36,241 nucleotides of DNA from Nitrospirota bacterium (lineage in GTDB: Bacteria > Nitrospirota > Thermodesulfovibrionia > Thermodesulfovibrionales > Dissulfurispiraceae): contig JAJZPZ010000015.1 of NCBI GenBank assembly GCA_021847795.1, positions 1 to 36,241 of the forward strand, in the 5' to 3' direction. Numbering within the stretch: the stretch's first letter is position 1; each line of letters begins with the position of its first letter. The position numbers were made by a program, and so were the translations under genes. Below, in pieces: positions 7,205-35,873 of the stretch. Below the pieces are notes generated by a model. The model saw only the letters and a program-made list of their open reading frames with translations, did no database searches and was not told the origin of the DNA.

Positions 7205-7585
7205 ATGCTGGATAAAAAAATACTCATCATAGACGAGGCCGGCTTCTGCCGTATCTGCGCCGCAATCCTTGAGTTCGAGGGATACGGGATAGAGACGGTC
7301 ACGAATTTCGACAATTCCATCGTGAGACTCGACGACAACAAGTTCGGGCTGATCATCACGAGCTACCCTTACGGCATCTCCCTTTTTGAGGACATCAAGA
7401 GGAAGAATACTTCGACCATAATTCTTTCAGACCACATCAATGGAGAACTTATCAATATACTCGAGGGCTTCAATAATTCATATTGCATGATAAAGCCTCT
7501 TGATTACCAGAAGTTCCGTTCTCTGGTGAAGCAGGTGATGAACGGCGATCTCAGTAATGTCCAGGGGGGCTACAATATTGTATAA
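7205..7585 (+). CDS. Degenerate receiver-domain protein (pseudo-receiver)
   Basis: A stand-alone 126-residue protein with the receiver (CheY-like) fold pattern: KKILIIDEAGF as strand 1, a helix, IETVTN as strand 2, FGLIITSYPYG as strand 3, STIILSD as strand 4, and CMIKPLDYQKF with the conserved Lys. The phospho-acceptor Asp that should follow strand 3 is Ser (IITS), and the acidic pair of strand 1 is reduced to DE, so normal phosphorylation is unlikely. The ATG at 7205 is preferred over a TTG at 7184 because receivers begin just before KILIID and because the TTG lies inside the sigma54-like promoter; neither has a Shine-Dalgarno sequence. The 3' end overlaps the PrsT gene by 29 bases, so the two are probably co-translated. 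It is probably a protein-binding regulator of the cluster; I do not recognise a named family. Confidence 0.75.
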   Translation: MLDKKILIIDEAGFCRICAAILEFEGYGIETVTNFDNSIVRLDDNKFGLIITSYPYGISLFEDIKRKNTSTIILSDHINGELINILEGFNNSYCMIKPLDYQKFRSLVKQVMNGDLSNVQGGYNIV

Positions 7586-10361
7586 ACTATTCTTCAAAGC
7601 GGGTCTCATTGTCTTATCCGTCATCTTCCTTACAGCAGGCTGTACCGGGAAAATAGGCAAGACCAAAGAGGAACTCCTCAGGGAAGGCGTCAGGCAGATC
7701 GCGGAGAACAACCCCAGGGGCGCAATCGTATTTTTTAAAAACGCCCTTGAGAGCGACCAGAACTTTTTTGAGGCGCGGTTCCAGCTTGCAAAGGCATATT
7801 ACCGCATCGGCAATTTCGATTCCGCTGAAAAGGAGTTGCAGAAAACCATACGGCAAAGCCCTGCCCTTGGAGCTGCCCGCATCCTGCTCGCACGGGTGTA
7901 CCTGCAGAAGGCAAAGCCGGATGATGCGCTGCATACGATAGCGGAATTGCAGGGCAACAGCACGGGGAATGCCGAACTCCTTGAGATCGAAGGCTGGGCC
8001 AGGGCCCTGAAGGGCGAATTGCCGGCCGCAGTGGACTTCCTAAAGCAGGCAGTCGCCTCCCGTGGAAGCAAACCTTCAGCCGCAATTCTGCTTTCGCGGG
8101 TATATGCAAAGATGGGCCGCCCCGATACTGCCAGGGAGGAGGTTGAAGAGGTCCTCAGAAAAGAGCCGTCCAATGCTGATGCCCTTTATCTCCTTGCCGG
8201 GTTCCAGGCCGGGGGGGGAGACCCCGATGCGGCAATAAAGACCTATGAGCGGATCATCAGGGCGCAGCCTTCAGATGCAGAGGCTTACTTTAAAAAGGGG
8301 ATGCTCCATATCAGGAAGCAGCAGTTGGACGAGGCGCTTGCCCTGGCCGAGAAACTCATTGCAACGCTGCCCGATAAGCCCCAGGGGTATGAACTCAAGG
8401 GCATCGTGCTTTTCCACCGGAAAAATTTCAACGATGCCGTAACCTCGCTGCAGAAGTCGCTCGCGATCATGCCCAATATAAGCGGGTATTACTATCTCGG
8501 CCTCAGCCATTATTACAGGAACGAATCCGAGCAGGCGATGAGCCAGTTCCAGAGGGCGCTTGACCTTAACCCCTCCTTTGTCCAGGCGCGGGTGCTTGTG
8601 TCGCTCATCCTCCTGAAACAAAAAAGGACCGATGACTCCATTGCCGAAATCAGGAAGGCGCTGGAGGCAGACAAGGACAATGCCTTCGCCCACAACATAC
8701 TCGGCAGCGCTTATATGGAAAAAGGGAAATACAACGAGGGCATGGCGGAGTTCAACCGGGCGATATCGCTTGACCCCAAACTCGCCGACGTCCACCTCAA
8801 GAAGGGGTTCTACAGCTTCAGCAAGGGGCGGTTCAGGGATGCGGAAGCGGAACTGAAAACAGCTGTGCGGTTAACTCCGGAAGCGCTGAACACACGACTC
8901 TTCCTGGCCTCCTACTACCTGAAGCTGAAGGATTATGACAAGGCCATACATACCATGCAGGAGGGACTTGCAAACAACCGGTCCGACGCCGTGCTTTATA
9001 ATTATATGGCCGTTGCCTTCCTGGCGGGCAGGAGGCCTGCCGAGGCCGTCAAATGCATACAAAAGGCAAAGGCCGTCAATCCCGATTATCTCGATCCCTA
9101 CTTCAACCTTGCCGCCTACTACATCAAAAGCGGCGATCACGACAAGGCGGCCAATGAATACAAAGCGGTCCTGGGGCGGGCGCCAAAGGACCTCAGGGCA
9201 CTGATAAGCCTGGCATCGGTGCTTGAATTCAAGGGGCAGGACAAAGATGCCCTTGCCTATTACAAAAAAGCGGGCGAAAGCGGACTCCCGGCAGGCGCCA
9301 TTGCCCTTGCAGACTATTTTATAAGAAAGCGGGAGGGCGGGAAGGCGCTTGAGGCGCTCGACGACGCCATCAAAGCTGATCCCCGCAATGCCGAACTGAT
9401 GGAGCTGAAGGGAAAAACCTGCCTGGCTGAAAAAAAGTACAAAGATGCCGCGCAGAGTTTTGAAAAGCTGGAGACCGTTGACCCCGAGAGGGCCTTCCCC
9501 CTGATCGTAAAGACCGCCGTCATCCAGCGTGATTACAAGACGGCGCTGCGAAAAGTGGAGGAGAAACTGAAATCCGATGCGGCGAGGAATGATCTCATCT
9601 CCGAACAGGCGGAGATCTACCTGCTTATGGGCAATGCCCCAAAGGCGCTGGAGAGCGCAAACACGATAATCAGGCAGAACCCCGGCTCCGCTTTCGGCTA
9701 CATGGTGCTTGCCTATGTCTATGAGAACAGCAATAACAGGGACAAAGCCATAGATGCCCTCAGAAGGGGGCTGAAGGTCGAGCGCGACAGATCACGGGCA
9801 AGCCGGGCCGGGATGATGCTTGCCGGTCTCTATGAGCGGAAAAACAATTATCCTCTTGCGCTCAGCGTTTACGACGGCATACTCAGGGCGGATCCGGGGA
9901 ATGTTGCCGCACTTTTTGCGCAGGGTGAGCTTTACAGCAGGACCGGCAGGAAAAGGGACGCTGTAAAGAAATATCTCCAGGTTATCTGGAAGTCGGAAAA
10001 TCATGTCCCTGCATTGAACAATCTTGCTTACCTTTACGCCGAGGGGTATGGGAGCAAGTCGGAGGCCCTGAAGCTTGCAGCAAAGGCATACAGTCTGGCC
10101 CCGGGTAACGGAGGAATTGCAGATACCCTGGGTTACGTTCTCCTGAAGAACGGGAGACCCGATGAGGCCCGGAAGATGTTTGAAAGGGCAGTAGCCTTTT
10201 TGCCTAACAATCCTTCCGTTTATTATCACATTGCTCTTTCCCAGGTGAGCCGGGGAGAGAGGGCCGGGGCCGTTTATAACTTGCAGCGGGCAGCCGGGTT
10301 GGGCGCTTTCCCCGAGGTGGATGAGGCCAGGCGCTTGCTGGCAGAGCTGAAGAAACGATAG
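7557..10361 (+). CDS. prsT: PEP-CTERM system TPR-repeat lipoprotein, PrsT type
   Basis: A 934-residue lipoprotein made almost entirely of tetratricopeptide repeats (roughly residues 35-930; typical units contain A-x-x-x-G-x-x-x-x-A and end N-P or D-P). The signal peptide ends in the lipobox LTAGC (Cys29), which predicts lipid anchoring facing the periplasm. Length, lipobox and repeat layout match the PrsT family (TIGR02917) found in exosortase/PEP-CTERM polysaccharide loci. TPR lipoproteins there are thought to scaffold the export machinery between the membranes. The ATG at 7557 overlaps the pseudo-receiver gene; a TTG at 7578, eight bases after an AGGGGGG ribosome-binding site, would give the tidier signal peptide MYKLFFKAG and is a serious alternative. 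The sugar transferase gene follows after 15 bases. Confidence 0.9.
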   Translation: MSRGATILYKLFFKAGLIVLSVIFLTAGCTGKIGKTKEELLREGVRQIAENNPRGAIVFFKNALESDQNFFEARFQLAKAYYRIGNFDSAEKELQKTIRQSPALGAARILLARVYLQKAKPDDALHTIAELQGNSTGNAELLEIEGWARALKGELPAAVDFLKQAVASRGSKPSAAILLSRVYAKMGRPDTAREEVEEVLRKEPSNADALYLLAGFQAGGGDPDAAIKTYERIIRAQPSDAEAYFKKGMLHIRKQQLDEALALAEKLIATLPDKPQGYELKGIVLFHRKNFNDAVTSLQKSLAIMPNISGYYYLGLSHYYRNESEQAMSQFQRALDLNPSFVQARVLVSLILLKQKRTDDSIAEIRKALEADKDNAFAHNILGSAYMEKGKYNEGMAEFNRAISLDPKLADVHLKKGFYSFSKGRFRDAEAELKTAVRLTPEALNTRLFLASYYLKLKDYDKAIHTMQEGLANNRSDAVLYNYMAVAFLAGRRPAEAVKCIQKAKAVNPDYLDPYFNLAAYYIKSGDHDKAANEYKAVLGRAPKDLRALISLASVLEFKGQDKDALAYYKKAGESGLPAGAIALADYFIRKREGGKALEALDDAIKADPRNAELMELKGKTCLAEKKYKDAAQSFEKLETVDPERAFPLIVKTAVIQRDYKTALRKVEEKLKSDAARNDLISEQAEIYLLMGNAPKALESANTIIRQNPGSAFGYMVLAYVYENSNNRDKAIDALRRGLKVERDRSRASRAGMMLAGLYERKNNYPLALSVYDGILRADPGNVAALFAQGELYSRTGRKRDAVKKYLQVIWKSENHVPALNNLAYLYAEGYGSKSEALKLAAKAYSLAPGNGGIADTLGYVLLKNGRPDEARKMFERAVAFLPNNPSVYYHIALSQVSRGERAGAVYNLQRAAGLGAFPEVDEARRLLAELKKR

Positions 10362-15244: not shown

Positions 15245-16441
15245 GTGTACGAGAGCTACTTTAATTTCAGGATAAAACCCTTTGAGCTTGTCCCGAATCC
15301 CGACTTCCTTTACATGAGCAAGTCGCATAAAAGGGCCATGACCTATCTCGATTACGGGATCAAGGAAAAAGCCGGCTTTATTCTCCTCACCGGGGAAGTA
15401 GGTTCCGGGAAGACCACGCTGATAAGGGACCTGATCAAGAAGCTGAACGGGAAGGTGGCGGTATCGAAAGTATTCAATACCAAGGTTACGTCCGAACAGC
15501 TCATCGCAATGATCAATGACGATTTCGGGCTCAACAGCAGGAATAAGGACAAGGTGCAGATGCTGAAAGACCTCTATGATTTCCTGATCGGGCAGTATGC
15601 AAAGGGATTTCATTCGGTGCTGATCATTGATGAGGCCCAGAACCTCGGCACTGAACTGCTTGAGGAGGTCAGGATGCTGTCGAACCTCGAAACGGACAGC
15701 TCCAAGCTGATGCAGATAATCATTGCCGGCCAGCCCGAACTCAGGCGTGTCCTTTCCCTGCCTGAACTGCAGCAATTCAGGCAAAGGATAAACATAAGCT
15801 GCCATATCTACCCGCTCACCAGGGCTGAAGCTGAAGAATATATACTCCACAGGCTCGAAGTCGCGGGCAACAGGGAGGCGATACGGTTTGCCGGAGAACC
15901 CCTGGACATTATCTACCGGTACAGCAGGGGGATCCCGAGGCTTATGAATGTAATCTGCGATTTCCTTCTGCTCTCGGCCTTTGTGGATGAAGTGAAGGAG
16001 CTTACGGCAGACATGGTGCGTGACATCGTGGGCGACCTCGAACTGGAGGGCAAGTATTGGGAGTTCGAGTCCTCCATCAGGGCGGTGCAGGGCGAAAGGG
16101 AGCCGAAGGCCTTCGGTGAGGAGGAGAGGAGATATTACGAGGAGATAAAAGGCCTGCTCAGCAGCATGAATCTCCGCATTGACGCCCTCGAAAAAGGGAC
16201 GTCGAGACTTAATCCCGTTGCTCCCGGAGACCCCGGCAAAAGGCTGGACCTTTTTGAAAAGTTCATGAAGGAACATATCAGGAAGACCGAACAGTCCCTG
16301 GTGGAAGTGAGGGACAGGATGAAGGACCATGAGGCGGCGCTGAACGCAGTCGCAGCAGCCGGCAGCGCCGCGTACAAGGCGAAGAAGGGACTGCTCAGGC
16401 GGCTGTTTGAAATCTCGAAAAGGAAATTATTGAGCTATTGA
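15245..16441 (+). CDS. ExeA/XrtA-associated AAA ATPase with coiled-coil tail
   Basis: A 398-residue ATPase. The first 270 residues match the PEP-CTERM-locus ATPase family (TIGR03015, related to ExeA/GspA): opening YESYFNFRIKPFELVPNPDF, Walker A GEVGSGKT (50-57), Walker B VLIIDEAQ (125-132), and RIRL-type sensor region around RFRQRINISCHIYPL. The remaining 130 residues are charged, with heptad-like segments (KRLDLFEKFMKEHIRKTEQSL), and end basic. The GTG at 15245 is chosen over an upstream TTG because the family starts exactly at (M)YE-x-Y and AGGAAGGA precedes it; the gap to the kinase gene is ten bases. It is thought to power or position the export assembly, perhaps contacting the cell wall, but the exact job is unknown. 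Confidence 0.88.
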   Translation: MYESYFNFRIKPFELVPNPDFLYMSKSHKRAMTYLDYGIKEKAGFILLTGEVGSGKTTLIRDLIKKLNGKVAVSKVFNTKVTSEQLIAMINDDFGLNSRNKDKVQMLKDLYDFLIGQYAKGFHSVLIIDEAQNLGTELLEEVRMLSNLETDSSKLMQIIIAGQPELRRVLSLPELQQFRQRINISCHIYPLTRAEAEEYILHRLEVAGNREAIRFAGEPLDIIYRYSRGIPRLMNVICDFLLLSAFVDEVKELTADMVRDIVGDLELEGKYWEFESSIRAVQGEREPKAFGEEERRYYEEIKGLLSSMNLRIDALEKGTSRLNPVAPGDPGKRLDLFEKFMKEHIRKTEQSLVEVRDRMKDHEAALNAVAAAGSAAYKAKKGLLRRLFEISKRKLLSY

Positions 16442-16488
16442 GCTTCAGATACTGCGTGCATTTGACTGAAATTCCACGAAGAGAGGTA

Positions 16489-17001
16489 ATGATGGTTACT
16501 GAGAAACTCAGCTGGTACGCCTTGTATGTAAAATCGAGACACGAGTTTGTCGCCCAGGGGGAACTGAGCCGAAAGGGGATAAATACCTATCTGCCTGCGG
16601 TCAAGAAGGCCAGGCAATGGAAGGACAGGAAGAAGTTCGTTGAGTTCCCTTTGTTCCCGGGATATTGCTTTGTCAACATCAAGCCCAGTCCTGAAGACTT
16701 TGTGAGCGTCCTGAAGACCAGGGGGGTCGTAACGCTCCTGTCCTCAAAGCCGGGCTGCCCGACACCGGTTGCCCCGGAGGAGATCAACTCGCTCAGGCTC
16801 CTGGTGGAAAGCGGCAAGGACTTTGATATTTTCCCGCATCTCAAGGAGGGCGCGCGGGTGAGAGTAAAAAGAGGGCCCCTGAAAGGCGCGGAAGGCGTCC
16901 TTGAGAAAAAGGAGGACCAGTACATGCTCCTGGTCAGCATAAAACTCCTCGGCAGAAGCGTAGGGGTCAATATATACGCCGATGATATTGAAGCGGCTTA
17001 A
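16489..17001 (+). CDS. NusG-family transcription antiterminator (RfaH/UpxY/LoaP-like)
   Basis: A 170-residue NusG paralogue that should bind RNA polymerase and suppress pausing or termination in long polysaccharide operons. The NGN domain is clear: SWYALYVKSRHEFVAQGELSR, then FPGYCFVNIKPSPEDFVSVLKTRGVV (about 55-85). The KOW domain follows at about 120-145 (GARVRVKRGPLKGAEGVLEK). Specialised paralogues such as RfaH, UpxY and LoaP are usually encoded inside or at the head of the operon they serve, as here. The start is one of two tandem ATGs (16489 or 16492) after GAGAGG; the open frame upstream is not used. About 270 untranslated bases with a strong hairpin follow and may be its target site (inference). 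Confidence 0.9.
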   Translation: MMVTEKLSWYALYVKSRHEFVAQGELSRKGINTYLPAVKKARQWKDRKKFVEFPLFPGYCFVNIKPSPEDFVSVLKTRGVVTLLSSKPGCPTPVAPEEINSLRLLVESGKDFDIFPHLKEGARVRVKRGPLKGAEGVLEKKEDQYMLLVSIKLLGRSVGVNIYADDIEAA

Positions 17002-17028
17002 TCGCCCGTTCTCATAAGGGAGCTTTCG

Positions 17029-17053
17029 CCCGGCGCTGTAACCGTGCGCCGGG
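17029..17053 (+). promoter_or_regulatory. Strong GC hairpin after the NusG paralogue
   Basis: CCCGGCGC pairs perfectly with GCGCCGGG around a nine-base loop (TGTAACCGT). No T-run follows directly, so it is not a standard terminator. The first TTTT is about eleven bases downstream after another GC stretch. It lies 27 bases after the stop of the antiterminator gene and about 220 before the next gene. It could be a pause site, a loading site for the NusG paralogue, or a weak attenuator. Confidence 0.55.
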
Positions 17054-17273
17054 GAGACGCCGGTGTTTTGTACATCCGGATTTAAAGGACGTAGAGGGCG
17101 GTCCCGGGCACTGCTGCGTGCTCAGGCGCACCGGCCTCAACCGTATTAAGGCTCAGGAGTTGTGCGGCGCGTTTCTTTCAGCTGCACGGTCCTGTGACTG
17201 AGAAGGCGAAGCATTGCGCAAATCATCAGGGAACGGGAACGGCTTTCATTATGGAGAAAAGGACGAACGGCAA

Positions 17274-18524
17274 ATGGGCCTGAGGCCCGGGAGGGAAGAC
17301 GTGCTCCTGACGCTTATGCTTTCGCTTGCCCTGGTGTATTGCTGCGCGTCCGCTGCCCGCGGGGCTGACTTTGAGATCACCCCGTCCATGAGCGTCAGCG
17401 AGGAATATAATGATAATATCTTCCTCCGGAAAGAGGACAAGGTCGGCGATTATATTACCAGCGCCATGCCTTCCGTTGCCTTGAAATACGCAACCCCGCT
17501 CTGGCAATGGGACGCCGCCTATGCCTTTGACTACCTCTACTATGCCGCGAAGACAAGAAACGATGACAAGATCCACAACCTTGCGGCCAACGGGCTGATT
17601 GCGCTGATCCGGGACAGGCTCATGCTGAAGCTCAGCGATGATTACAGCCGCGCTCCGCTCGATGTCGCAAGGGACGTAACGAGAGAGAGCGCTTTTCTCA
17701 ACCAGTCCGACAGGAACATTTTTACCCTGAACCCCTACTTCATTGTAGAGCCTGCCCCCCTGATCAAAGTGACCACCGGGTATGCTTATATCGACACCTG
17801 GTATAAAAACGATTCAGGAGTCAGCAAGACGGTGAATACCTTTTTCACCGAACCTTCGTATGAGCTGTCGCCCAAAATCGTCCTTAACGCGGGGTACAGG
17901 TATTCACAGGAGGCAAGCAGGGAATCGGACTTCACAAAAAACGACATCTACGTCGGTTCACGGTACGAGTATGCCGATCGCTCAAACATCTTTTTTAAGG
18001 TCGGCAACAGCCTGGTGAAATTTACGGGAAGAAGCGGGAGCGGCAATATGTTCTGGACCGCCGGTATTTCCCACGCATTCCCGACCTTTACGGGATCCGT
18101 CGAGACCTCTTCCGACTACACCGAGAACCCCCTGGGCACGATAGACAAGACGACAAACTACATGGCTTCAGTAAAAAAGGAGTTTAAACGGACAACGGCA
18201 AGTCTCTCCCTGGCCTATACGGAGTTCAAGAACGCCGAGACGGTCACGTATCATGTAAACAGGTACGGGGTAAACGCGAATGCCCGGTATGAACTGACGG
18301 CAAAAACCACGGGCGCCGTAGACTTTACAGCCGAAAAGCTCGATGACAAGGTCCTGAACACCTACACCAGGAGGTACTTTGCAGGCCTGAAGTTCGACTA
18401 TGAACTCTGGAAAGAGACGAGCGTGAGCGCCGGGTATAACTATGCTTACAGCTACTCGCCGGAAATAACAGGGGACACATACAGGAACAACAGGTTCCTC
18501 GTCGGGGTAAGGAAGACCTTCTAG
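17274..18524 (+). CDS. Outer-membrane beta-barrel of the polysaccharide locus
   Basis: A 416-residue exported protein. After a signal peptide (MGLRPGREDVLLTLMLSLAL.., cleavage near ARGA|DF) it consists of alternating amphipathic strands rich in Tyr, Asn and Thr (e.g. YDNIF-like EYNDNIFLRKEDK, YRYSQEA, YEYADRSNIFFKV) and ends in a strand terminating with Phe (FLVGVRKTF), the classical outer-membrane assembly signal. The opening DFEITPSMSVSEEYNDNIF is typical of the BBP2-like porin family and of the PEP-CTERM-associated family TIGR03016. It is likely the outer-membrane pore or a partner of the Wza-like protein. The ATG at 17274 gives a normal signal peptide; a TTG at 17214 would add 20 polar residues and cannot be excluded. 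Confidence 0.85.
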   Translation: MGLRPGREDVLLTLMLSLALVYCCASAARGADFEITPSMSVSEEYNDNIFLRKEDKVGDYITSAMPSVALKYATPLWQWDAAYAFDYLYYAAKTRNDDKIHNLAANGLIALIRDRLMLKLSDDYSRAPLDVARDVTRESAFLNQSDRNIFTLNPYFIVEPAPLIKVTTGYAYIDTWYKNDSGVSKTVNTFFTEPSYELSPKIVLNAGYRYSQEASRESDFTKNDIYVGSRYEYADRSNIFFKVGNSLVKFTGRSGSGNMFWTAGISHAFPTFTGSVETSSDYTENPLGTIDKTTNYMASVKKEFKRTTASLSLAYTEFKNAETVTYHVNRYGVNANARYELTAKTTGAVDFTAEKLDDKVLNTYTRRYFAGLKFDYELWKETSVSAGYNYAYSYSPEITGDTYRNNRFLVGVRKTF

Positions 18525-18715
18525 CGCCCCGGGTTCCCGCAGGACATGAGGCACTCATTGCCGTCCTCAAGCGCTTTTACCGTCTGTTCCCGCATTTCTT
18601 ATAAACATCAGCTTGCCTTTACACCTTCAGAACCGAACACAATTGCAGCGTAAAAAGGGTCCTGGTACGAGGGCCCCGCTCGTGAACAAATAAAACACAC
18701 ACAGGAGAGACAGAC

Positions 18716-19702
18716 ATGGAAACAGTGTTGGTAACCGGAGGCGCGGGGTTCATAGGCAGCAATATTGCCGAGACAATGGCCTTGCAGGGATACAGGGTTG
18801 TTATTATCGACGATTTGAGCACAGGGAAAAGGGAAAATATTGAGGCGCTGCTCGGGACCGGGCGTGTGCAGTTCTTCCGGGGGAGCGTGCTTGACGCCGG
18901 GTTGCTGAAAAGGACGATTCGTGCGAACGGCGTTTCGCTGATATGCCACCAGGCCGCAATACCGAGCGTGGCCAAAAGCGTCCTTGATCCGGTGGGCACC
19001 TCTGAAGCCAACATAACGGGGACGGCAAATCTCTTCCAGGTTGCCTCTGAAGCCGGCTGCAGGAGGATCGTATTTGCAAGCTCCTCTGCCGTTTACGGAG
19101 ACGGCCCCGAGCTCCTGAAGGTGGAATCCATGCGCTTCCGTCCGAAATCCCCTTATGCTGTGTCGAAAATCACGAAAGAACTCTTTGCCGGCGTGTTCTC
19201 CCAGCTGCATACGATCGAGATCGTGGGGCTCCGGTATTTTAATGTGTACGGCAGGAGGCAGGACCCTTCTTCCGATTATGCCGCGGTAATTCCGAAATTC
19301 ATCGCAAACGCCCTCGACAACATGCCGATCACCATAGAAGGAGATGGCCTGCAGACCAGGGATTTTGCCTACATTGATGATGTTGTAGAGGCCAATATCA
19401 AGGCCTTAACGAAAGAGGGCATTTCCGGAATGGTCTTCAATATCGCCTGCGGTTCGCGCATAAGCATCCTTGATCTTGCGCGGATGATCATAGAGATCAC
19501 GGCTTCGGGATCTGCGATCACCTATCTGCCTCCGAGGCCGGGAGATATAAGGGACTCCCTTGCAGATATCGGAAATGCCCGGAAATACCTAGGCTTTGCC
19601 CCCGAATACGACATAGCCGTGGGGCTCAGGGAGACTATCCGGTGGTTCAGAGAGGCCGTACAGACCGTTCCCGATTGTGAGCCGGATGTTGCGCTGAGAT
19701 AA
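18716..19702 (+). CDS. NAD-dependent UDP-sugar 4-epimerase (WbpP/TviC/GalE-like)
   Basis: A 328-residue extended short-chain dehydrogenase. NAD-binding GGAGFIGS (8-15), IIDDLSTG after strand 2, catalytic region SSSAVYGD (122-129) and YAVSK (Tyr147, Lys151). The stretch RQDPSSDYAAVIPKF is characteristic of the branch acting on UDP-GlcNAc/GalNAc or their uronic acids, which points to a supply of an epimerised N-acetylhexosamine for the polymer; this substrate is inferred. The ATG is preceded by CAGGAGAGACAGAC. The 190 bases upstream of it contain no gene. It opens the sugar-modification part of the locus, and a WecB-type UDP-GlcNAc 2-epimerase at the right end of the window suggests a related precursor. 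Confidence 0.92.
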   Translation: METVLVTGGAGFIGSNIAETMALQGYRVVIIDDLSTGKRENIEALLGTGRVQFFRGSVLDAGLLKRTIRANGVSLICHQAAIPSVAKSVLDPVGTSEANITGTANLFQVASEAGCRRIVFASSSAVYGDGPELLKVESMRFRPKSPYAVSKITKELFAGVFSQLHTIEIVGLRYFNVYGRRQDPSSDYAAVIPKFIANALDNMPITIEGDGLQTRDFAYIDDVVEANIKALTKEGISGMVFNIACGSRISILDLARMIIEITASGSAITYLPPRPGDIRDSLADIGNARKYLGFAPEYDIAVGLRETIRWFREAVQTVPDCEPDVALR

Positions 19703-19738
19703 GCCCCGGCAGTTCCCCTCCAGCTGCAGGCCCCTGAT

Positions 19739-20584
19739 ATGCTGAACGCCCTGACGATAGATGTAGAAGACTATTTCCATGTCGCGGCTTTTGAACGGTA
19801 TGTCCGGGCAGAGGACTGGCCCCGCTATCCTCTCAGGGTCGAGGACAATACGTCCAGGATACTCGACATGCTTGACGAATTTTCCGTGAAAGCGACGTTT
19901 TTCGTGCTCGCCTGGGTGGCTGAAAGGTGCTCCTCTCTTGTACGGGAGATCCAGAGGAGGGGGCACCATGTGGCCTGCCATGGGTATGGGCACAAGCTGA
20001 TTTACCGGATCGGGCCCGACAACTTCAGAAAAGATGTGCGGGAATCCAAAAAGCTGCTTGAGGACATATGCGGCAGGCAGGTCAGGGGATACCGGGCGCC
20101 GAGCTACTCGATAACAAAACGGTCCCTCTGGGCATTGGACATCCTGATTGAAGAGGGCTTCCTGTACGATTCGAGCATATTCCCGATTGTACACGACCTC
20201 TACGGAATCCCCGGCGCAGACAGGTTCCCGCATGTCATAAGCAGGCCCTCGGGCATTATCAGGGAATTCCCCATGTCCACCATCCAGGTCGGAGTTTCAA
20301 ATATCCGCTACAGGGTCCCTGTGGCCGGGGGGGGATATCTCAGGTTATTTCCGGCGGGACTTATCAGGAAGGCTGTCAACCATATCAACCGGTCCGAGCA
20401 TCAGCCCGCAGTCATTTATTTTCACCCCTGGGAAATAGACCCCGGGCAACCGAGGATATGTGCCGGCTTCAAATCAAGGTTCAGGCATTACCTCAACCTC
20501 GACAAGACTGCAGGGAAGATCAGGTATCTTCTCGGCAGCCTGCAGTTCGGCCCGATGGAGGACGTGCTGGACCATGCAAAATGA
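19739..20584 (+). CDS. Polysaccharide deacetylase, XrtA-locus type
   Basis: A 281-residue NodB-fold (carbohydrate esterase 4-like) deacetylase. Motif 1 TIDVEDYF (Asp8, Asp11), motif 2 HGYGH (His81, His85), motif 3 RGYRAPSYSI (about 122-131), and the late FHPWEIDPGQPR motif followed by a C-terminal segment of the DUF3473 kind. This combination defines the PEP-CTERM-associated deacetylase family TIGR03006. No signal peptide is visible. It should remove N-acetyl groups from the polymer or a lipid-linked intermediate. The start has only a weak ribosome-binding site but coincides with the conserved beginning of the family. The next gene overlaps its end by 11 bases. Confidence 0.92.
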   Translation: MLNALTIDVEDYFHVAAFERYVRAEDWPRYPLRVEDNTSRILDMLDEFSVKATFFVLAWVAERCSSLVREIQRRGHHVACHGYGHKLIYRIGPDNFRKDVRESKKLLEDICGRQVRGYRAPSYSITKRSLWALDILIEEGFLYDSSIFPIVHDLYGIPGADRFPHVISRPSGIIREFPMSTIQVGVSNIRYRVPVAGGGYLRLFPAGLIRKAVNHINRSEHQPAVIYFHPWEIDPGQPRICAGFKSRFRHYLNLDKTAGKIRYLLGSLQFGPMEDVLDHAK

Positions 20585-21956
20585 GATACCCCGGGGGGAC
20601 TTTTACTCGATGGTGGTCAGGCGCGTAATAGCGCCGCTTTGGGCAAGGAGAGAGCGGAGCCCCTACCTCAGGTACCTGGAGCGCCTTGAAAAGGCCCAGT
20701 ACCGCCACAGGGATGAAGTGAAAGAGGACCAGTGGAGGAGATTCAAGAGGCTCCTGACCCATGCTTACCACAACACGAATTTCTACCGGGAAAGGCTGAA
20801 GGCCTGCGGAGTAACGCCTGAAGATATAAGGTCCTGGGAGGACCTGACCTGGGTCCCCGTGCTTACGAAGAACGATATCAGGACCCATAAAGAGAATATG
20901 GTGGCCAGGAACATTCCCGGGAACAGGCTCTTCCCCAAGAAAACTTCCGGCTCTACGGGCGTTTCGCTCGAGTTCTGCGTAGATGATGCGAGCCTCCAGT
21001 GGAAGCGGGCCTGTGCCATCCGGCATGACAGGTGGACCGGCTGGAACATAGGAGAAAGGATAGGGGCGATATGGGGGAACCCCGTATACAGAAAAAGTCT
21101 GCGCGGGTATATACGAAACACCCTCCTGGAAAGGTTCCTCTACCTCGATACCCTGAAGATGAACGAAAAGGAAATGCTGGGCTTCTACCGCAGGATAAAG
21201 AAGAAGAGGCCTACCCTTCTCTTCGGGCATGCCCATTCCCTCTACCTCTTCGCCCGCTTTCTTGCCGCAAGCCGCCTCATGGATATCAGGGTAAAAGGCA
21301 TAATAAGCACAGCCATGGTGCTGCATGACTTCGAACGGAAGGAGATAGAGAGGGTCTTTGACTGCAAGGTAACGAACAGGTACGGCTGCGAGGAAGTAAG
21401 CCTTATCGCATGCGAATGCCGGGAGCACCACGGCTTCCATATAAACGCCGATTCCCTTGTAGTTGAGTTCTCCAGGGAGGGAATCCCCGTGCAACCGGGT
21501 GAAAGCGGGGCAATACTGGTTACGGACCTCACCAATTCCGGTATGCCTTTTATCAGGTATAAAGTCGGGGATGTCGGGATCCCCTCGTCGGACCGCTTAT
21601 GCGGGTGCGGGTGCACCTATCCCCTCATGGATTCGCTTGAGGGGAGGATAGCGGACTATGTGGTGACGCCTGACGGAGACTATGTATCGGGAATATCCCT
21701 GACGGAAAACTTCGCTATGCTCCTGGGAGGCATAAAGCAATTGCAGATTGTCCAGGAACGCATTGATTACCTGGTGCTCAGGGTCGTGAGAGGCGAGGGG
21801 TTCAGCGAAGGCACGCTTAAAGAAATAGGCAGGCTTATCGCCCTCAGGTTCGGCGGTAAAATGAAACACTCCGTGGAGTTCGTGGACTCCATCCAGCAGG
21901 AGCAGTCGGGGAAGTACCGCTTCTGCATATCAAAGCTGGAGGGGCAGTTGTTCTAG
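20574..21956 (+). CDS. CapK/PaaK-like adenylate-forming enzyme
   Basis: A 460-residue member of the phenylacetate-CoA ligase-like (CapK) branch of adenylate-forming enzymes. The nucleotide-binding loop KTSGSTGVSLEF is at 123-134; NRYGCEEVSLIACEC (about 270-284) and a Cys-rich stretch (DRLCGCGCTYPLMD) followed by EGRIADYV mark the AMP-binding and hinge regions. Homologues are frequent in capsule and exopolysaccharide loci, where the acid they activate is mostly unknown; phenylacetate itself is unlikely. Perhaps it activates an acyl or amino-acid substituent for transfer by one of the GNAT-like proteins further on (inference). The ATG at 20574 lies within the end of the deacetylase gene, after TGGAGGA. 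Confidence 0.85.
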   Translation: MQNEIPRGDFYSMVVRRVIAPLWARRERSPYLRYLERLEKAQYRHRDEVKEDQWRRFKRLLTHAYHNTNFYRERLKACGVTPEDIRSWEDLTWVPVLTKNDIRTHKENMVARNIPGNRLFPKKTSGSTGVSLEFCVDDASLQWKRACAIRHDRWTGWNIGERIGAIWGNPVYRKSLRGYIRNTLLERFLYLDTLKMNEKEMLGFYRRIKKKRPTLLFGHAHSLYLFARFLAASRLMDIRVKGIISTAMVLHDFERKEIERVFDCKVTNRYGCEEVSLIACECREHHGFHINADSLVVEFSREGIPVQPGESGAILVTDLTNSGMPFIRYKVGDVGIPSSDRLCGCGCTYPLMDSLEGRIADYVVTPDGDYVSGISLTENFAMLLGGIKQLQIVQERIDYLVLRVVRGEGFSEGTLKEIGRLIALRFGGKMKHSVEFVDSIQQEQSGKYRFCISKLEGQLF

Positions 21957-21982
21957 GCCGACCCTTCCCGGGATTTCATTGA

Positions 21983-23176
21983 ATGTCCATCATCCCCGTT
22001 ATTCTTGCTCCTGTCCTGCTGTTCCTGAGCGCTGCGGTCCTTTATCTCTTTGCCCTTGCCGCGGCCTACTTTTTCTGCAGGCCCGGCAAAAGATATGATG
22101 AGCGCGCGCCGGAACTGAGATTCGCCGTCATCATTCCCGCGCACAACGAGGCAGAAGGCATCTCTGCAACGCTGGAGAGTATGAAAAACCTCGATTACCC
22201 TGCCCATCTCTACGATGCCGTGGTCATCGCGGACAATTGCACCGATGCAACTGCGGAAGCGGCAGGGAAAGAGGGAATGCGGTGCCTCGTGCGGGAGGAC
22301 CCTTCAAAAAAAGGCAAGGGCCATGCCCTTGAGTATGCCCTCCGTGTTCTTTTAAGGGAGGAGTTTGATTGCTTTATTGTCGTTGATGCCGACTCGGTGC
22401 TGACGGGAAATTTTCTCCGTGTGATGAACAGCCGCATGCTGGCCGGCCATGGGGTGGTGCAGGCCTGTTACGGGATGTCGAACCCTGATGCCGGCCCTTT
22501 AAGCTATCTTTTTTTTATCGGGAATGTTCTCGAAAACAGGCTGTTCTACGGGGGCAAGTCAAAGCTCGGCCTGCCGGTGAACCTCAGGGGAAACGGCATG
22601 TGTTTCTCCCGCCGCGTGCTTGAGATGCAGCCGTGGAATGCCTATTCCGTTGTGGAAGACACGGAGTACGGCCTCAAGCTTATACAGCGGGGCGTAAAGG
22701 TCCATTTCGAACAGGATGCGCAGGTGCTCGCCAGGCAGCCCGAAACTCTTGGCCAGGCCCGTAACCAGAGAATCCGCTGGGCCTCGGGGAACATGGCCGT
22801 GACCAGGGCGTATGCGCTCAGGCTTATGCTGAAGGGACTGTTTGCCTATGACCTCGCGTTATTCGACACAGGGTTCGGGCTTCTCGTCCTCAGCAAGCCG
22901 CTGCTCCTGCTGTTGTCTCTCCTTTCAGCGGCAGTTTCCCTGTTTTATTTTTCGGCAGGTGGAAAAGGAGGCGCTGTCTTTGCGGGGTGGGCGGTCCTTT
23001 TGCTCCTGGCGCAGACCGCGTATCTCCTGACCGGGATCTTTATGGAGGAAATAAATTGCCTGAGGATGAGGTATCTCCTCCTCTCCCCTGTTTTGATCCT
23101 GTGGTTTTTCCTTGTTGCTTCCCTTGGCCTGGTCGGTTACAGGGGAGACCTTTGGCTGCGCACCAAACGGGTTTGA
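21983..23176 (+). CDS. Membrane-bound family 2 glycosyltransferase
   Basis: A 397-residue processive-type GT2. One N-terminal membrane helix (about 5-32), a GT-A domain with VIIPAHNEAEGI (49-60), the DAD metal site (135-137), the ED motif VVEDTEYG (223-230) and QRIRW (262-266), then about three further helices (about 295-390). The QxxRW signature is that of cellulose- and hyaluronan-synthase-like enzymes and of chitooligosaccharide synthases. It could add repeated units or a single residue; sequence alone does not tell. It starts 26 bases after the CapK-like gene, and the glycosyltransferase gene that follows is 13 bases away. Confidence 0.9.
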   Translation: MSIIPVILAPVLLFLSAAVLYLFALAAAYFFCRPGKRYDERAPELRFAVIIPAHNEAEGISATLESMKNLDYPAHLYDAVVIADNCTDATAEAAGKEGMRCLVREDPSKKGKGHALEYALRVLLREEFDCFIVVDADSVLTGNFLRVMNSRMLAGHGVVQACYGMSNPDAGPLSYLFFIGNVLENRLFYGGKSKLGLPVNLRGNGMCFSRRVLEMQPWNAYSVVEDTEYGLKLIQRGVKVHFEQDAQVLARQPETLGQARNQRIRWASGNMAVTRAYALRLMLKGLFAYDLALFDTGFGLLVLSKPLLLLLSLLSAAVSLFYFSAGGKGGAVFAGWAVLLLLAQTAYLLTGIFMEEINCLRMRYLLLSPVLILWFFLVASLGLVGYRGDLWLRTKRV

Positions 23177-23189
23177 ACCCAAGGACCCT

Positions 23190-24329
23190 ATGCTGAAAAT
23201 AGGGCACCTGATAGCTACGAATTTTTTAGGGGGCCCGGAAAAACAGATAATAGGACATGCAAAGAGGATCAGCGGAAAGGGATTCGGCATGGTTCTCTTT
23301 TCTTTTATTGAGCGGGGCAGGCCGAATGAACTGCTTGCTGCGGCAGCAAAGATGTCCATACCCGCAAAGGGCCTCCGTACAGGGAACCCCTTTAATCCGA
23401 AGGTCATCCTCGATCTTGCCCTTATGCTGCGGGAGGAACGGGTGGATATCCTCTGCACACACAGCTACAAGTCGGATGTCATAGGCAGGCTCGCCACGCG
23501 GATGACAGGCATACCGGAGATCGCGGTATCCAGGGGCTGGACAGGAGAAAACAGGAAAGTAAGGCTGTTCGAGAAACTGGACAGATACTTTCTAAGGCTG
23601 GCCGACCATGTTGTGGCGGTTTCACACAAACAGAGGGAAAAGGTGCTGCAACTCGGTATCGACCCCGGCAAGGTCACGGTAATCCACAATGGAATCAATA
23701 TCGGCGATGCCCCGCAGCAGGCCCCCACAGCCATAAAAGCGGAACTCGGCCTGGAGGACAACTGCTGCCTCGTTATGTCGGCCGGGAGGTTAAGCCCGGA
23801 AAAGAATTTCGACGGCCTTATCGGGGCGGCAGAGGCGATAAAGGCCCGCGGAGAGCGCGGTATACGGTTTGCTGTTTTCGGAGAGGGCCCCCTCAGGGGC
23901 AGGCTGGAAAAAAAAATCAGGGCTGCAGGACTGCAGAAGACCTTTTTCCTCCCCGGCTTCAGGAAAGATTTCGTGTCACTGCTCGCAGGGGCGGATATTT
24001 TTGTCCTGCCTTCATTCTCCGAGGGACTGCCCAATGTAATACTCGAAGCCTATTCTTTGAAAAAACCCGTCATTGCAACTGCAGTGGGCGGCATTCCCGA
24101 ACTGGTCCAGGACGGGGTGGCAGGGCTGCTGGTACTGCCGGATGAGATCGGGAAGCTGGCTGACTCTATTGCCGGGCTTGCCCGGGACAGTGCGCTTCGG
24201 AGAGAAATGGGCGGCAGGGGGTATGAACACCTGAAAGAGCATTTCAACTTTGAGATCCAGACAAAGAGGTTCGAGAAACTCTACCGTGAGGTCTACGATT
24301 CCTTTCATCACCATAGTCATGCCTGTTAA
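23190..24329 (+). CDS. Family 4 glycosyltransferase
   Basis: A 379-residue GT-B enzyme. The N-terminal domain begins MLKIGHLIATNFLGGPEKQI with the usual glycine-rich acceptor loop; VTVIHNGIN marks the interdomain linker; VMSAGRLSPEKNFDGLI opens the donor domain; and FSEGLPNVILEAYSLKKPVIAT holds the E-x7-E motif that binds the nucleotide sugar. It is soluble and probably peripheral to the inner membrane. The ATG at 23190 after AAGGAC is used; the upstream open frame overlaps the previous gene. The donor and linkage are unknown. Confidence 0.92.
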   Translation: MLKIGHLIATNFLGGPEKQIIGHAKRISGKGFGMVLFSFIERGRPNELLAAAAKMSIPAKGLRTGNPFNPKVILDLALMLREERVDILCTHSYKSDVIGRLATRMTGIPEIAVSRGWTGENRKVRLFEKLDRYFLRLADHVVAVSHKQREKVLQLGIDPGKVTVIHNGINIGDAPQQAPTAIKAELGLEDNCCLVMSAGRLSPEKNFDGLIGAAEAIKARGERGIRFAVFGEGPLRGRLEKKIRAAGLQKTFFLPGFRKDFVSLLAGADIFVLPSFSEGLPNVILEAYSLKKPVIATAVGGIPELVQDGVAGLLVLPDEIGKLADSIAGLARDSALRREMGGRGYEHLKEHFNFEIQTKRFEKLYREVYDSFHHHSHAC

Positions 24330-25323
24330 GAACGAAGCGGGATTCATTACGGGCACCCTGATGCAGCTTTTGCAGCAGGACTATCCCCCTGACCGGTTTG
24401 AGATCCTCCTGGTGGATGGAATGTCCGAAGACGGGACGCCGGAAATAGCGCGTCAAATCTCCCGCGGGTACCCGGCGTTGCACGTGCTGAAAAATGAAAA
24501 GCGCCTGCCCGGCTCAGGGAGGAATATCGGGTTCCGGAATGGAAAGGGAGATGTTTTCCTTGTTGTAGACGGGCATTGCCATATCGGGAACGATCAGCTC
24601 CTGAGGAACATTGCCAGGTGCCTTGAAACAAGCGGCGCCGGGTGTCTCGGAAGGCCGCAGCCCCTGGACCCTCCCGGGCTCAGCGAGTTCCAGAAGGCCC
24701 TGGCCCTGGCGCGGGCCTCTATGCTCGGGCACCGGGAAGATTCCCTGATATACAGCAGCTATGAAGGGTATGCAAGCCCTGTAAGCAACGGCGCCGTATA
24801 TACGAAAGAGGTGTTCCGGAAGGTGGGATATGTTGATGAGGAATTCGACGCCTGTGAAGATGTGGAGTTCAATTACCGGGTTGAGAGGGCGGGCATACCG
24901 GCCTTTACAAGTCCCTCCCTTACGATCAGGTATTATCCACGGGAAGACCTGACAGGCCTGTTCAGGCAGATGAACAGATACGGGCAGGGGCGTTTCCGGT
25001 TTGCGAAGAAGCACCGCGAAGCGTTCAATGTCGAAATGCTGGTCCCCCCCTTGTTCGTTGCGGGTTTTTTCCTCCTCCTCACGGCAGGAATGCTTTCCGT
25101 GTTTTCTGATTTGATGTACGGGGTTTTTGTTACCTTTTATATTCTGTACAGCATGTATATTTTGATGATTGTGGCTGAGTCAGCGCGTATTTCCCTGAAG
25201 AACGGGTCCCGGTATTTTAAGCATCTGCCTTTTATCTTTTTCACCATACATTGGGGCCTTGGCTGGGGACTTATAAGAGAAGCCGTGCGCAGCCTCGCAA
25301 AAAGGGCCCGGCCGGGGGAATAA
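24286..25323 (+). CDS. Family 2 glycosyltransferase with C-terminal membrane helices (ExoA-like)
   Basis: About 345 residues. A GT-A domain opens with PFITIVMPVKNEAGFI, has VDGMSEDGT (43-51) and a metal-site-like VVDGHC (93-98), and is followed by two or three hydrophobic helices (about 245-310). VDGHC in place of D-x-D resembles ExoA-type succinoglycan transferases. The start is uncertain. A GTG at 24286 keeps the first strand intact and overlaps the previous gene by 44 bases; the ATG at 24319 would remove part of that strand; a TTG at 24250 is also in frame. Tight coupling with the upstream GT4 gene is clear. Confidence 0.87.
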   Translation: MRSTIPFITIVMPVKNEAGFITGTLMQLLQQDYPPDRFEILLVDGMSEDGTPEIARQISRGYPALHVLKNEKRLPGSGRNIGFRNGKGDVFLVVDGHCHIGNDQLLRNIARCLETSGAGCLGRPQPLDPPGLSEFQKALALARASMLGHREDSLIYSSYEGYASPVSNGAVYTKEVFRKVGYVDEEFDACEDVEFNYRVERAGIPAFTSPSLTIRYYPREDLTGLFRQMNRYGQGRFRFAKKHREAFNVEMLVPPLFVAGFFLLLTAGMLSVFSDLMYGVFVTFYILYSMYILMIVAESARISLKNGSRYFKHLPFIFFTIHWGLGWGLIREAVRSLAKRARPGE

Positions 25324-25341
25324 GGGCCATCGTTGCGCAAC

Positions 25342-26184
25342 ATGCCTTCCCTGGTAGAAAAAGCGGTTTTATGGAGCAGGAAGGTCGGGTTTACGGACAT
25401 CTTTCATGAGGACGTAAGGCGAAGGGGCGGCCTCGGCCGGTTGTACATCCTGCTCTTCGGGACCCCGAGCCTCGGCAATTTTTCGAACGGGATATACCTG
25501 AACAGGGCGCTGAGGAACCATACTTTCAGGAATGTCCTTGATGCCGGATGCGGCGATGGGACCTTTTCTTTTTTCATTGCCTCCCGCTACCCCTGGTGCT
25601 CCGTCACCGGGATGGATATCGGGGAACAGGGGCTGCATACTTCAGAGTCCACCCTGGATGTCTGCTCCAGGATACAGGAAGCATTGCGCCTGCACAACCT
25701 CCGGTTCAGGAGACTGGATCTGCGTGAATTGTCCGAGAAGGACACGTATGATTTCATCTTCAGCCTCGATGTCCTGGAGCATATCAGGGAGAATAAAAAG
25801 GTGCTGGAAAACTTCTATAACGCCCTTGTTGAGGGGGGCCGGATGCTGGTGAGGATTCCAACGAGGGTGCAGCAGAGGGTCCTCAGCCCGAAATTCACCG
25901 CTGAGCACGAGCGCTGGGCCGCAATAGAGCACGTCGGCCAGCATTACGACATGCCCGGCCTTTTGGAAGATTTAAAGGGAATCGGCTTCACTATAATCAC
26001 CGCCAGGCACACAAACGGCTTTTTCGGGAAGCTGGCATTCGAACTCCTTCAGGCCATGCAGTACTACGGGTTGCCGGAATTCATCCGGTTCGGCCTGACC
26101 CCGGCGCTCAAGGCGCTTCGGGTCATTGATGCCGTGACAAGGCCGAAGCAGGGGAACGGCATGCTGGTGCTCTGCAGGAAATAG
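25342..26184 (+). CDS. SAM-dependent class I methyltransferase
   Basis: A 280-residue soluble protein with motif I VLDAGCGDGTFSFF (65-78), an acidic residue ending strand 2 (GMDIGEQG), and FIFSLDVLEHIRE for motif II/post-II. This is the class I Rossmann methyltransferase fold. Given the surroundings it probably O-methylates a sugar or caps the chain, but that is inferred from position. The ATG at 25342 is chosen over a TTG three codons earlier. Confidence 0.87.
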   Translation: MPSLVEKAVLWSRKVGFTDIFHEDVRRRGGLGRLYILLFGTPSLGNFSNGIYLNRALRNHTFRNVLDAGCGDGTFSFFIASRYPWCSVTGMDIGEQGLHTSESTLDVCSRIQEALRLHNLRFRRLDLRELSEKDTYDFIFSLDVLEHIRENKKVLENFYNALVEGGRMLVRIPTRVQQRVLSPKFTAEHERWAAIEHVGQHYDMPGLLEDLKGIGFTIITARHTNGFFGKLAFELLQAMQYYGLPEFIRFGLTPALKALRVIDAVTRPKQGNGMLVLCRK

Positions 26185-26194
26185 CCGCACGTCA

Positions 26195-27565
26195 ATGGGT
26201 ATCGTGAACGCTGCGGTGCGGGCGGTATCGGGCCTCATTGCCGCTCTCGCCCTTGCGGTAATGGGCAGCGCCGATCTTTATTGCGCTGATTTTGCCCGGG
26301 CAGGGAAGGTGATCGTATGCTTCAGATGCGACGATTTCTTTGCAGTAAAGGGACTCCCCTCGGAAAAGGTCTTCAGGACGAAAAAAAGGATAATCGAACT
26401 CTTCAGGAAACATCACGTGCCGCTTACAATCGGGGTCATCCCTTATGTCCATAAGTCGATTTCCGGGCAGCTCTCTTCCTTCACGGAACTGACTCCCGGT
26501 GATCCTGTTGCCTCTCTTTTGCGCTCTGTTGCAGCTGACCGTAACTTTGAAGTGGCGCTGCACGGCCTGACCCATTACCCCAACAGGATATCGAAGGTGT
26601 CGGAATGGGCGGGGCTGCCCGCGGAATTGCAGGCGGCGAAAATCGACAGGGGAAGGAGAATCCTTTCAGGGGCACTGGGCTTGTACCGGCCTGATACGTT
26701 CATCCCACCCTGGAATTCCTTTGATTTAAATACGGTCAAGGCGCTCAAGGCGAACGGCTTTACCTATCTTTCAGGAGATGCGGGCATTGTAAAAAACAGC
26801 CCCTTTACCAGGAGAAACCCCTACGAAAGAGAGTACCTGAAGGTGAACATTGTGCCCGGCGCCTGCGCACTGTCCGAACTTGCGGAGGTCCTGAGACTGT
26901 CGGGCAGGGGCCCCGCAGGACAGGTCGTGGTCGTGGTGTTTCATCCCTACGATTTCCGGGAGTACAGGGGGGCCGCGGCAAAGGGCAGCGCCTTCTTCGA
27001 TCTCGCGGGCCTGGACAGGTTGCTCGGAAACCTCGGGAAAGACGGCAACCTGGAGTTCCTCCGGATCAGGGACCTTGACCCCGGCGCAATTCCTGCCTCG
27101 CGTTATTCGGCTGCGTGCAGGTATTGTGTGATGCTCAAAGCTGCGGAGGCGGTGTTCCCGCGGAAGGCGCTCGAGGTCCTGGGGTTGACGGACAAGGGCG
27201 CCGGCCACTGGCTCGCAAAGGGAAGGTACCTGCCTGAAGCTGAATATTCAAAATTGTTTTCCCGGCTCCTTATACTGCTGTCGCTGCTGAGCGCCGCCTC
27301 AGGCATTGCCTCCGGAGCTGCCGCGGCATTTCTCATGGGCAGGCAGTTCCGTGCAAAGAGACTTGTGCCGGTTCTCCTGGTTTTCCTCAGTATCTTTGCA
27401 GGCGGGCTCCTCTGCCTGGAGTTCCGGACGGAGAGCCTGTCGGCGCCGAACGCGCTGGGATTGCAGGTCCTGTATTACATCTTCTTTGCCTCGGCCCTTC
27501 CGTCATTCCTGGTTGTCCTGAAAAAGCGCAGCGGCAGGGGCCCGTCATACTACCCGGACATATGA
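26195..27565 (+). CDS. Exported deacetylase-like (DUF2334-type) protein fused to membrane helices
   Basis: A 456-residue protein. N-terminal signal or anchor (about 10-30), a NodB-like catalytic region with VCFRCDDFF (Asp46, Asp47), LTIGVIP, ALHGLTHYP (His123, His127), FIPPWNSFD and a late VVVFHPYDF, then about 80 residues without a recognised fold and three membrane helices (about 352-445). Metal-binding Asp and His residues are all in place, so activity is plausible; the active site would face the periplasm. It is a second deacetylase of a different branch from that at 19739. The combination with C-terminal helices is unusual. Its stop codon overlaps the ATG of the next gene. Confidence 0.8.
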   Translation: MGIVNAAVRAVSGLIAALALAVMGSADLYCADFARAGKVIVCFRCDDFFAVKGLPSEKVFRTKKRIIELFRKHHVPLTIGVIPYVHKSISGQLSSFTELTPGDPVASLLRSVAADRNFEVALHGLTHYPNRISKVSEWAGLPAELQAAKIDRGRRILSGALGLYRPDTFIPPWNSFDLNTVKALKANGFTYLSGDAGIVKNSPFTRRNPYEREYLKVNIVPGACALSELAEVLRLSGRGPAGQVVVVVFHPYDFREYRGAAAKGSAFFDLAGLDRLLGNLGKDGNLEFLRIRDLDPGAIPASRYSAACRYCVMLKAAEAVFPRKALEVLGLTDKGAGHWLAKGRYLPEAEYSKLFSRLLILLSLLSAASGIASGAAAAFLMGRQFRAKRLVPVLLVFLSIFAGGLLCLEFRTESLSAPNALGLQVLYYIFFASALPSFLVVLKKRSGRGPSYYPDI

Positions 27566-28731: not shown

Positions 28732-28748
28732 AAACGGCCCGGGGATGA

Positions 28749-29357: not shown

Positions 29358-29379
29358 CGGAACACGCAGGCGCCCTCCC

Positions 29380-30528: not shown

Positions 30529-30530
30529 AC

Positions 30531-31358: not shown

Positions 31359-31403
31359 ACCGCACCGCACAGTCGCTTTTACCCTGGGCAACGGGGGCGA
31401 GAG

Positions 31404-32669: not shown

Positions 32670-32680
32670 AGAACCCGCCA

Positions 32681-33757: not shown

Positions 33758-33793
33758 CAGGTCCCGCATCTCAGGCCTGGGAGAGCTGAATAT

Positions 33794-35757: not shown

Positions 35758-35873
35758 CAAAGACCGGAGACAAAGACCAAGGCAAAAGCAAAAGACTCCC
35801 GTGTTGATCTTCTTCTATTCGCTATAGTTGGGAGACCCTGGGGGGACCGCCCCCGCCGCATGATGAATCCCAT
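35758..35873. other. Short spacer before wecB
   Basis: Begins with small A-rich direct repeats (ACAAAGACC twice, CAAAAG twice, 35756-35790) and contains a compact hairpin, GGGGG (35841-35845) and CCCCC (35850-35854) around ACCG, without a T-run. No gene is seen. Confidence 0.4.

Follow-up and report, generated by a model that had tools for sequence, protein, structure and literature searches.

What recruits the NusG paralogue that is encoded in the middle of this exopolysaccharide locus, and does the recruitment site lie in the spacer behind its gene? The window (the whole stretch of 36,241 nucleotides that was analyzed) carries on its + strand an XrtA/PEP-CTERM exopolysaccharide locus, and genes of this kind flank nusG on both sides. 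The initial annotation described a specialised NusG encoded mid-locus and proposed a GC hairpin shortly behind it as an antitermination site. The locus is laid out as follows.

4554-6966, + strand: sensor kinase and sigma-54-type regulator
7557-10361, + strand: PrsT
next genes, + strand: initiating glycosyltransferase, export protein, chain-length determinant, tyrosine kinase, ATPase, NusG paralogue
16489-17001, + strand: UpxY-family NusG paralogue, 170 aa (NF033644, PF02357; alternative start ATG 16492)
17029-17053, no strand assigned: perfect 8-bp all-GC inverted repeat CCCGGCGC-N9-GCGCCGGG, outside the conserved element described below
17274-18524, + strand: PEP-CTERM-system outer membrane protein TIGR03016 (189.4 bits; start codon inferred), the first gene behind the conserved element
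genes 3' of the NusG paralogue, + strand: the TIGR03016 outer membrane protein, epimerase, deacetylase, glycosyltransferases, ABC exporter genes

The TIGR03016 gene opens a run of + strand open reading frames (ORFs) that reaches the end of the window; in-frame alternative starts precede its ATG 17274 at TTG 17214 and ATG 17253.

The NusG paralogue noted in the initial annotation is real, and it belongs to the UpxY family. It scores 125.8 bits against NF033644 (UpxY; curated cut-off 100) and matches PF02357, and it falls under the curated cut-offs for RfaH (TIGR01955, 91.9 bits against 144.5) and LoaP (NF033641, 67.4 bits against 125). An AlphaFold2 model built from 43 sequences (mean pLDDT 79.1, pTM 0.61) has an NGN domain and a C-terminal domain formed as strands. 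The free form of RfaH has an alpha-helical, autoinhibitory C-terminal domain, and models of this type cannot exclude fold switching. Foldseek places the predicted structure closest to NusG and RfaH entries; its NGN domain aligns with RfaH in the ops-paused complex 8pen with a TM score of 0.86 by target length over 98 columns. In RfaH the residues reported to contact ops are K10, H20, R23, and R73 (PMC5995543, available excerpt). This set is only partly kept among 44 relatives, the window included, when columns are assigned to the alignment by eye: the K10 site has K in 29 and R in 15, the H20 site has E in 26 and R in 12 with H absent from the five commonest residues, the R23 site has K in 21 and R in 16, and the R73 site has R in 22, P in 10, and K in 5. 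The protein would serve the surrounding XrtA/PEP-CTERM exopolysaccharide genes. A search of named GTDB genomes returned one locus, on a Thermodesulfovibrio MAG contig, with a NusG 66% identical to that of the window; as Thermodesulfovibrio is a genus of Nitrospirota, the genome of the window probably falls in this phylum too. Plasmids gave four distant NusG matches (27–30% identity).

Provided that the next gene begins at ATG 17274, the spacer after nusG spans 17002-17273, in agreement with the roughly 270 untranslated bases first described. The perfect 8-bp GC hairpin is also present where it was reported, beginning 27 bases past the nusG stop codon. It is one of six perfect 8-bp inverted repeats in the window with loops of 3–12 bases, and 20 block-shuffles of the window gave between 0 and 10 (mean ~6). 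Its arms are all GC, unlike those of the other five, which speaks in its favour, but repeats of its class are as frequent in shuffled sequence, and a perfect 8-bp repeat within 100 nt of the nusG stop was found in one of 42 relatives, with a different sequence. The hairpin was therefore rejected as the recognition site, and we give the idea that it is the antitermination site almost no credence. Comparison of the spacer among relatives, which had been suggested as a check, showed that this hairpin is not kept and that positions 17173-17220 are kept instead. These positions sit 120 nt beyond the hairpin in the same spacer.

Other signals were sought in and around the spacer. The fold of the whole 271-nt spacer is slightly better than that of shuffled sequences (z -1.69, 13 of 200 as good). 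No match to E. coli ops with up to two mismatches occurs in the spacer, as first noted, and the window total is 3 where 2.63 are expected. Looser ops-like patterns near nusG were scattered and inconsistent and were discarded. Rfam gave nothing in the window at the gathering threshold; with E values up to 10, four matches were returned in 16300-17500, all of unrelated kinds. No intrinsic terminator was predicted on the + strand of 16300-17500. There are 28 terminator-like sites on both strands of 17221-36241 (20.2 expected, sd 4.8), eight of them on the + strand, a count that argues neither way.

The conserved sequence was recognized when the DNA after nusG in relatives was printed. It occurs within 420 nt after nusG at 33 of 44 nusG loci, the window included, and one of the 11 loci without it ends 52 nt past nusG. 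Its parts in the window are as follows.

17173-17220, + strand: conserved element (model R1), a hairpin together with an ops-like core, within the leader of the operon's downstream half
17173-17185, + strand: hairpin, 5' arm (model alignment); its pairing is weak in this copy
17194-17206, + strand: 3' arm of the hairpin, GTGACTGAGAAGG, conserved in sequence (model, pattern, and 137-copy consensus)
17205-17216, + strand: ops-like 12-base core GGCGAAGCATTG, its layout likened to that of ops (PMC5995543, available excerpt)
17215 and 17216: predicted pause, with T 17215 at the RNA 3' end and G 17216 as the next base

Alignment A1 has 31 rows, leaving out two loci in which the element is present and the 5' arm unclear (L036 and L039). 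Two more with a misaligned 5' arm (L027 and L042) were removed for alignment A2, and its 29 rows were used to train model R1. The model scores 17173-17220 at 42.8 bits (E 1.4e-11 in the window), a value obtained on a training row, as the window copy is among the 29. The fixed pattern GTRACYGARARGGCGRAGC has a single exact match in the window, at 17194-17212, where 0.02 matches with up to two mismatches are expected. From 150 model matches, eight antisense matches (the stem is palindromic) and five with a variant or missing core were dropped to leave 137 copies, one of which (L061; 16.6 bits, nusG on the opposite strand) is probably false. Their consensus is TGTRASYGAGARGGCGRAGCWKTG; its seven GCGRAGC positions are invariant, R apart, because GCGRAGC was required for inclusion. 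The last 12 bases of the consensus, GGCGRAGCWKTG, occur once in the window (0.05 expected) and are matched in full by 87 of the 137 copies; T11 of the core is kept in 131 and G12 in 106. Viral contigs had no match to the strict 24-base pattern.

A hairpin is common among the copies, and its 3' arm extends into the core. Across the 31 aligned copies, standard pairs fill 87.5% of cells, compared to 41–52% when the partner is slid by one to three columns. Changes on both sides occur in 7 of 14 pairs, which 5 of 500 shuffles matched; this test favours the stem because the 5' arms were chosen by eye. Without a hand-picked 5' arm, pairing of the 3' arm to the upstream sequence of the same copy is better than to shuffled sequence (p ≤ 0.05) in 68 of 106 GTRAC/T-type copies, and a control 13-mer in the same test does so in 9 of 137. 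Mean pairing energy in the 106 copies is -12.86 kcal/mol with their own upstream sequence and -11.16 kcal/mol with that of other loci. Pairing is shown for the class of copies outside family f27. In the GTAAG-type copies, which are mostly f27-like, the same test found a long hairpin in none of 31.

The RNA hairpin of the window copy pairs no better than chance (308 of 500 shuffles pair as well; z 0.32), and its 5' arm is also claimed by a stronger stem next to it. The two other copies in the same genome were equalled by 11 and 9 of 500 shuffles, and a copy at the corresponding place in a relative (L059, same place as L022), where the gene order ATPase, nusG, outer membrane protein is kept, by 2 of 500. 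Hairpin loops differ widely in length and sequence among copies. Sequence conservation is higher in the 3' arm than in the 5' arm. Because the window stem is weak and the GTAAG class has none, what is common to all classes of copies is the core, not the stem.

The distribution of the element was compared with that of UpxY genes in 295 genomes of the phylum, with UpxY called by the curated cut-off and the element by R1 at E ≤ 1e-3. UpxY was found in 131 genomes, the element in 87, and both in 76; 55 have UpxY only, 11 the element only, and 153 neither. Fisher's exact p for this co-occurrence is 8e-23, which is overstated because the genomes are related and relatedness was left uncorrected. Outside family f27, the element is present in 62 of 66 UpxY genomes. 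Most UpxY genomes without an R1 match at E ≤ 1e-3 belong to f27 (51 of 55), a family with 65 UpxY genomes in all. One nusG locus from each of 18 of these 51 genomes was checked, and in 16 of them the strict core precedes nusG on the same strand (15 at -26 to -99, one at -529); none has it on the opposite strand. In f27 the element has diverged, yet most of the sampled loci retain the core. The other four UpxY genomes without a match comprise one with the core at -139 (G222), one in which nusG is 171 bases from a contig end (G261), one with no core found near nusG (G156), and one with no model match at its nusG locus (G176).

The 11 element-only genomes are of several kinds. Two (G036 and G218) have partial NusG matches within ~200 nt of the element, three (G258, G269, and G273) have second NusG homologues scoring 77–84 bits, and one (G101) has no NusG match at E ≤ 1e-5. 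In the other five (G030, G086, G107, G149, and G256), the element is present and only one NusG homologue was found; these copies are possibly relics of a lost UpxY gene, or the result of assembly gaps (G107 is a single contig). The genome of the window encodes three NusG homologues: the window copy, one on contig C166 with 28% identity to it, and one on contig C135 with 23% identity that is probably the housekeeping copy. The C166 protein (L002/L087, genome G000) is a divergent second NusG paralogue on a 4-kb contig, which has no R1 match at E ≤ 1.

In relatives, the element lies just after or just before the UpxY gene, and it also precedes polysaccharide genes with no nusG nearby. For 123 copies at loci that had not been fetched for nusG, nusG is within 350 nt upstream in 48 and within 350 nt downstream in 16; it is farther away in 6, on the opposite strand in 1, and absent from the locus in 52. 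One genome (G007) has copies flanking nusG on both sides. An ORF of at least 200 aa starts within 450 nt on the same strand in 39 of the 52 copies without nusG, compared to 9 of 52 on the opposite strand. First ORFs were available behind 47 of these 52 (five had no suitable ORF), and include sugar-nucleotide, export, and PrsT families; among the 25 commonest families listed, nucleotidyl transferase accounts for 6, polysaccharide export for 5, and TPR (PrsT-like) for 4. Behind 51 nusG-adjacent copies, the families among the 25 commonest include epimerase/dehydratase (11) and UDP-glucose/GDP-mannose dehydrogenase (8). The next ORF of at least 100 aa has its first start codon at a median distance of 45.5 nt from the core. 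The element is linked to UpxY genes and to glycan operons.

The genome of the window has two more copies (33.8 and 31.3 bits), and both precede XrtA operons. The copy on contig C38 precedes export, chain-length, tyrosine kinase, and ATPase genes, and that on contig C242 precedes PrsT, export, and chain-length genes. No second copy precedes the front half of the locus in the window, where the sole other R1 match has 6.8 bits and lies at 20280.

Several further features were observed around the copies. A sigma-54-type -24/-12 sequence, TGGCATAATCATTGCT, lies ~142 nt upstream of the C38 element (L085), before the second XrtA operon. Sigma-54-type sites with at most one mismatch within 400 nt were found upstream of 6 of the 52 copies without nusG, downstream of none, and on the reverse strand of 2. 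Copies can be clustered, with four in ~4.6 kb at L143 (G194:C34) and two in less than 1 kb at L145 (G009:C110). In copies upstream of nusG (mainly f27; for example L203, L205, and L213), the KTG that ends the core is in a frame open for at least 100 codons in 18 of 27 start-like copies, with 5 and 2 in the other frames, the copies being related to each other. The predicted pause may coincide with the nusG start codon in copies upstream of nusG.

We consider the element at 17173-17220 to be probably (about 0.78) the recruitment site of the adjoining UpxY-type NusG, a counterpart of ops/JUMPstart that would act both in cis and in trans. After transcription of nusG, the polymerase would pause at the TG of GGCGAAGCATTG, as the match to the ops layout suggests. 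The paused complex would expose the non-template bases GGC-GRA-GC, with an RNA hairpin just behind in most copies. The UpxY protein, judging from its family, would recognize this complex and remain on the polymerase, and pausing and termination would then be suppressed over the following genes, which in the window amount to ~19 kb of glycan functions. The same protein could serve in trans the copies positioned before the two further XrtA operons. As there is no second copy in front, we guess that expression of the front half of the locus, nusG included, may not involve the factor, whereas that of the rear half may. The initial idea of a NusG recognition site in the spacer was right in outline and wrong in place: the spacer has its own conserved element, with a distribution that tracks UpxY-type NusG genes, and the 8-bp hairpin is not that element. 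The expectation of a recognition element other than ops is likewise supported by this comparative evidence, and we take the element for an ops-like recruitment signal of UpxY-type NusG.

A different division of labour would have UpxY read the nascent RNA hairpin, as LoaP does, with the conserved tail a mere pause that buys time. The both-sided changes in the hairpin of most copies outside f27 fit such a role, as does the report that LoaP binds a leader RNA hairpin (PMC12691694, available excerpt), but the hairpin is weak in the window copy and was not found in f27, and the core is kept regardless. The loops vary, unlike the UNCG tetraloop described for LoaP in the same excerpt, and sequence is conserved in the 3' arm and less in the 5' arm. 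We regard RNA-only reading as unlikely. Even less probable is a NusG-independent cis-regulatory RNA or attenuator in polysaccharide operons, whether as a riboswitch or at the level of translation, with GGAG near a start-like KTG codon. The leader position close to start codons (median given above), the KTG in a long open frame in copies upstream of nusG (18 of 27, against 5 and 2), and the 11 genomes with the element and no UpxY over the cut-off would suit it. However, co-occurrence with UpxY genes is strong and linkage on either side of them close, copies without nusG nearby show no frame bias (3, 2, and 3 of 33), and Rfam offers no family in the window at the gathering threshold and nothing relevant in 16300-17500 at E values up to 10.

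Recruitment at the ops-like core is our preferred reading, with pausing, UpxY binding, and antitermination at the element as its inferred steps. An extension that we put forward tentatively, and hold to be the less probable course, is a composite code shared across the phylum, in which a consensus-pause DNA core with a three-base GRA loop abuts an RNA hairpin and one UpxY protein reads both the DNA, like RfaH, and the RNA, like LoaP, for its own operon in cis and for several glycan operons in trans. In this system, core and hairpin could be altered independently of each other. With a candidate element for UpxY-type proteins now defined in many genomes, their recruitment becomes directly testable; its copies provide a list of candidate target operons, and orphan copies without UpxY are usable as negative controls.

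The systems closest to this one are RfaH with ops, LoaP, and the UpxY proteins of Bacteroides fragilis. In the excerpt available for ops (PMC5995543), the 12-mer GGCGGTAGCGTG forms a C3:G8 pair closing a loop of G4-A7, T6 is flipped into RfaH, which reads G5 and T6, and the pause is at U11. The core found here is GGCGAAGCATTG and not the ops 12-mer, and it shares with ops a length of 12 bases, a place in polysaccharide operon leaders, a GGCG start, and TG at positions 11-12. A short C:G stem is possible in both, C3:G8 in ops and C3:G7 here; the latter pair could form with a GRA loop, although the bases concerned do not vary among copies. Because the loop is GRA and not GGTA, with R5 and A6 in place of G5 and T6, the base-specific contacts known from RfaH must differ here. 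The element also differs from ops in having ~12 more conserved upstream bases, TGTRASYGAGAR, which overlap the stem. A stem-loop is reported among JUMPstart elements (PMC2864571, available excerpt), and the best match of Rfam JUMPstart (RF01707) in the genome of the window has 17.0 bits (gathering score 35) and lies at no copy of the element. Titles and abstract openings returned by literature searches, mostly of papers outside subscription and so without the original UpxY work, describe no such element.

LoaP, whose hairpin was described in a 2025 paper, is reported to bind an RNA hairpin with a UNCG tetraloop in its target leaders (PMC12691694, available excerpt). The pairing of a NusG paralogue with a leader hairpin, as in the dfn/mln leaders, is shared. 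The window protein differs in scoring 67.4 against the LoaP cut-off of 125, and the element in having an ops-like pause core directly behind the hairpin. The element hairpins have no fixed tetraloop such as UNCG; their loops come in many lengths and sequences.

The UpxY proteins of B. fragilis belong by curated cut-off to the same family, and there, as here, nusG lies in or adjoins its polysaccharide operon. Members of the family are characterized by preventing premature termination in operon leaders. None of the available excerpts names a sequence that UpxY recognizes. The protein is reported to work in leaders that precede upxY (PMC7819879, available excerpt), and the f27 element correspondingly occupies the leader ahead of nusG. 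In B. fragilis, each UpxY reportedly switches on the operon in which it resides (PMC7593976, available excerpt), whereas copies of the element also occur here without nusG nearby, and these suggest that UpxY acts on several operons.
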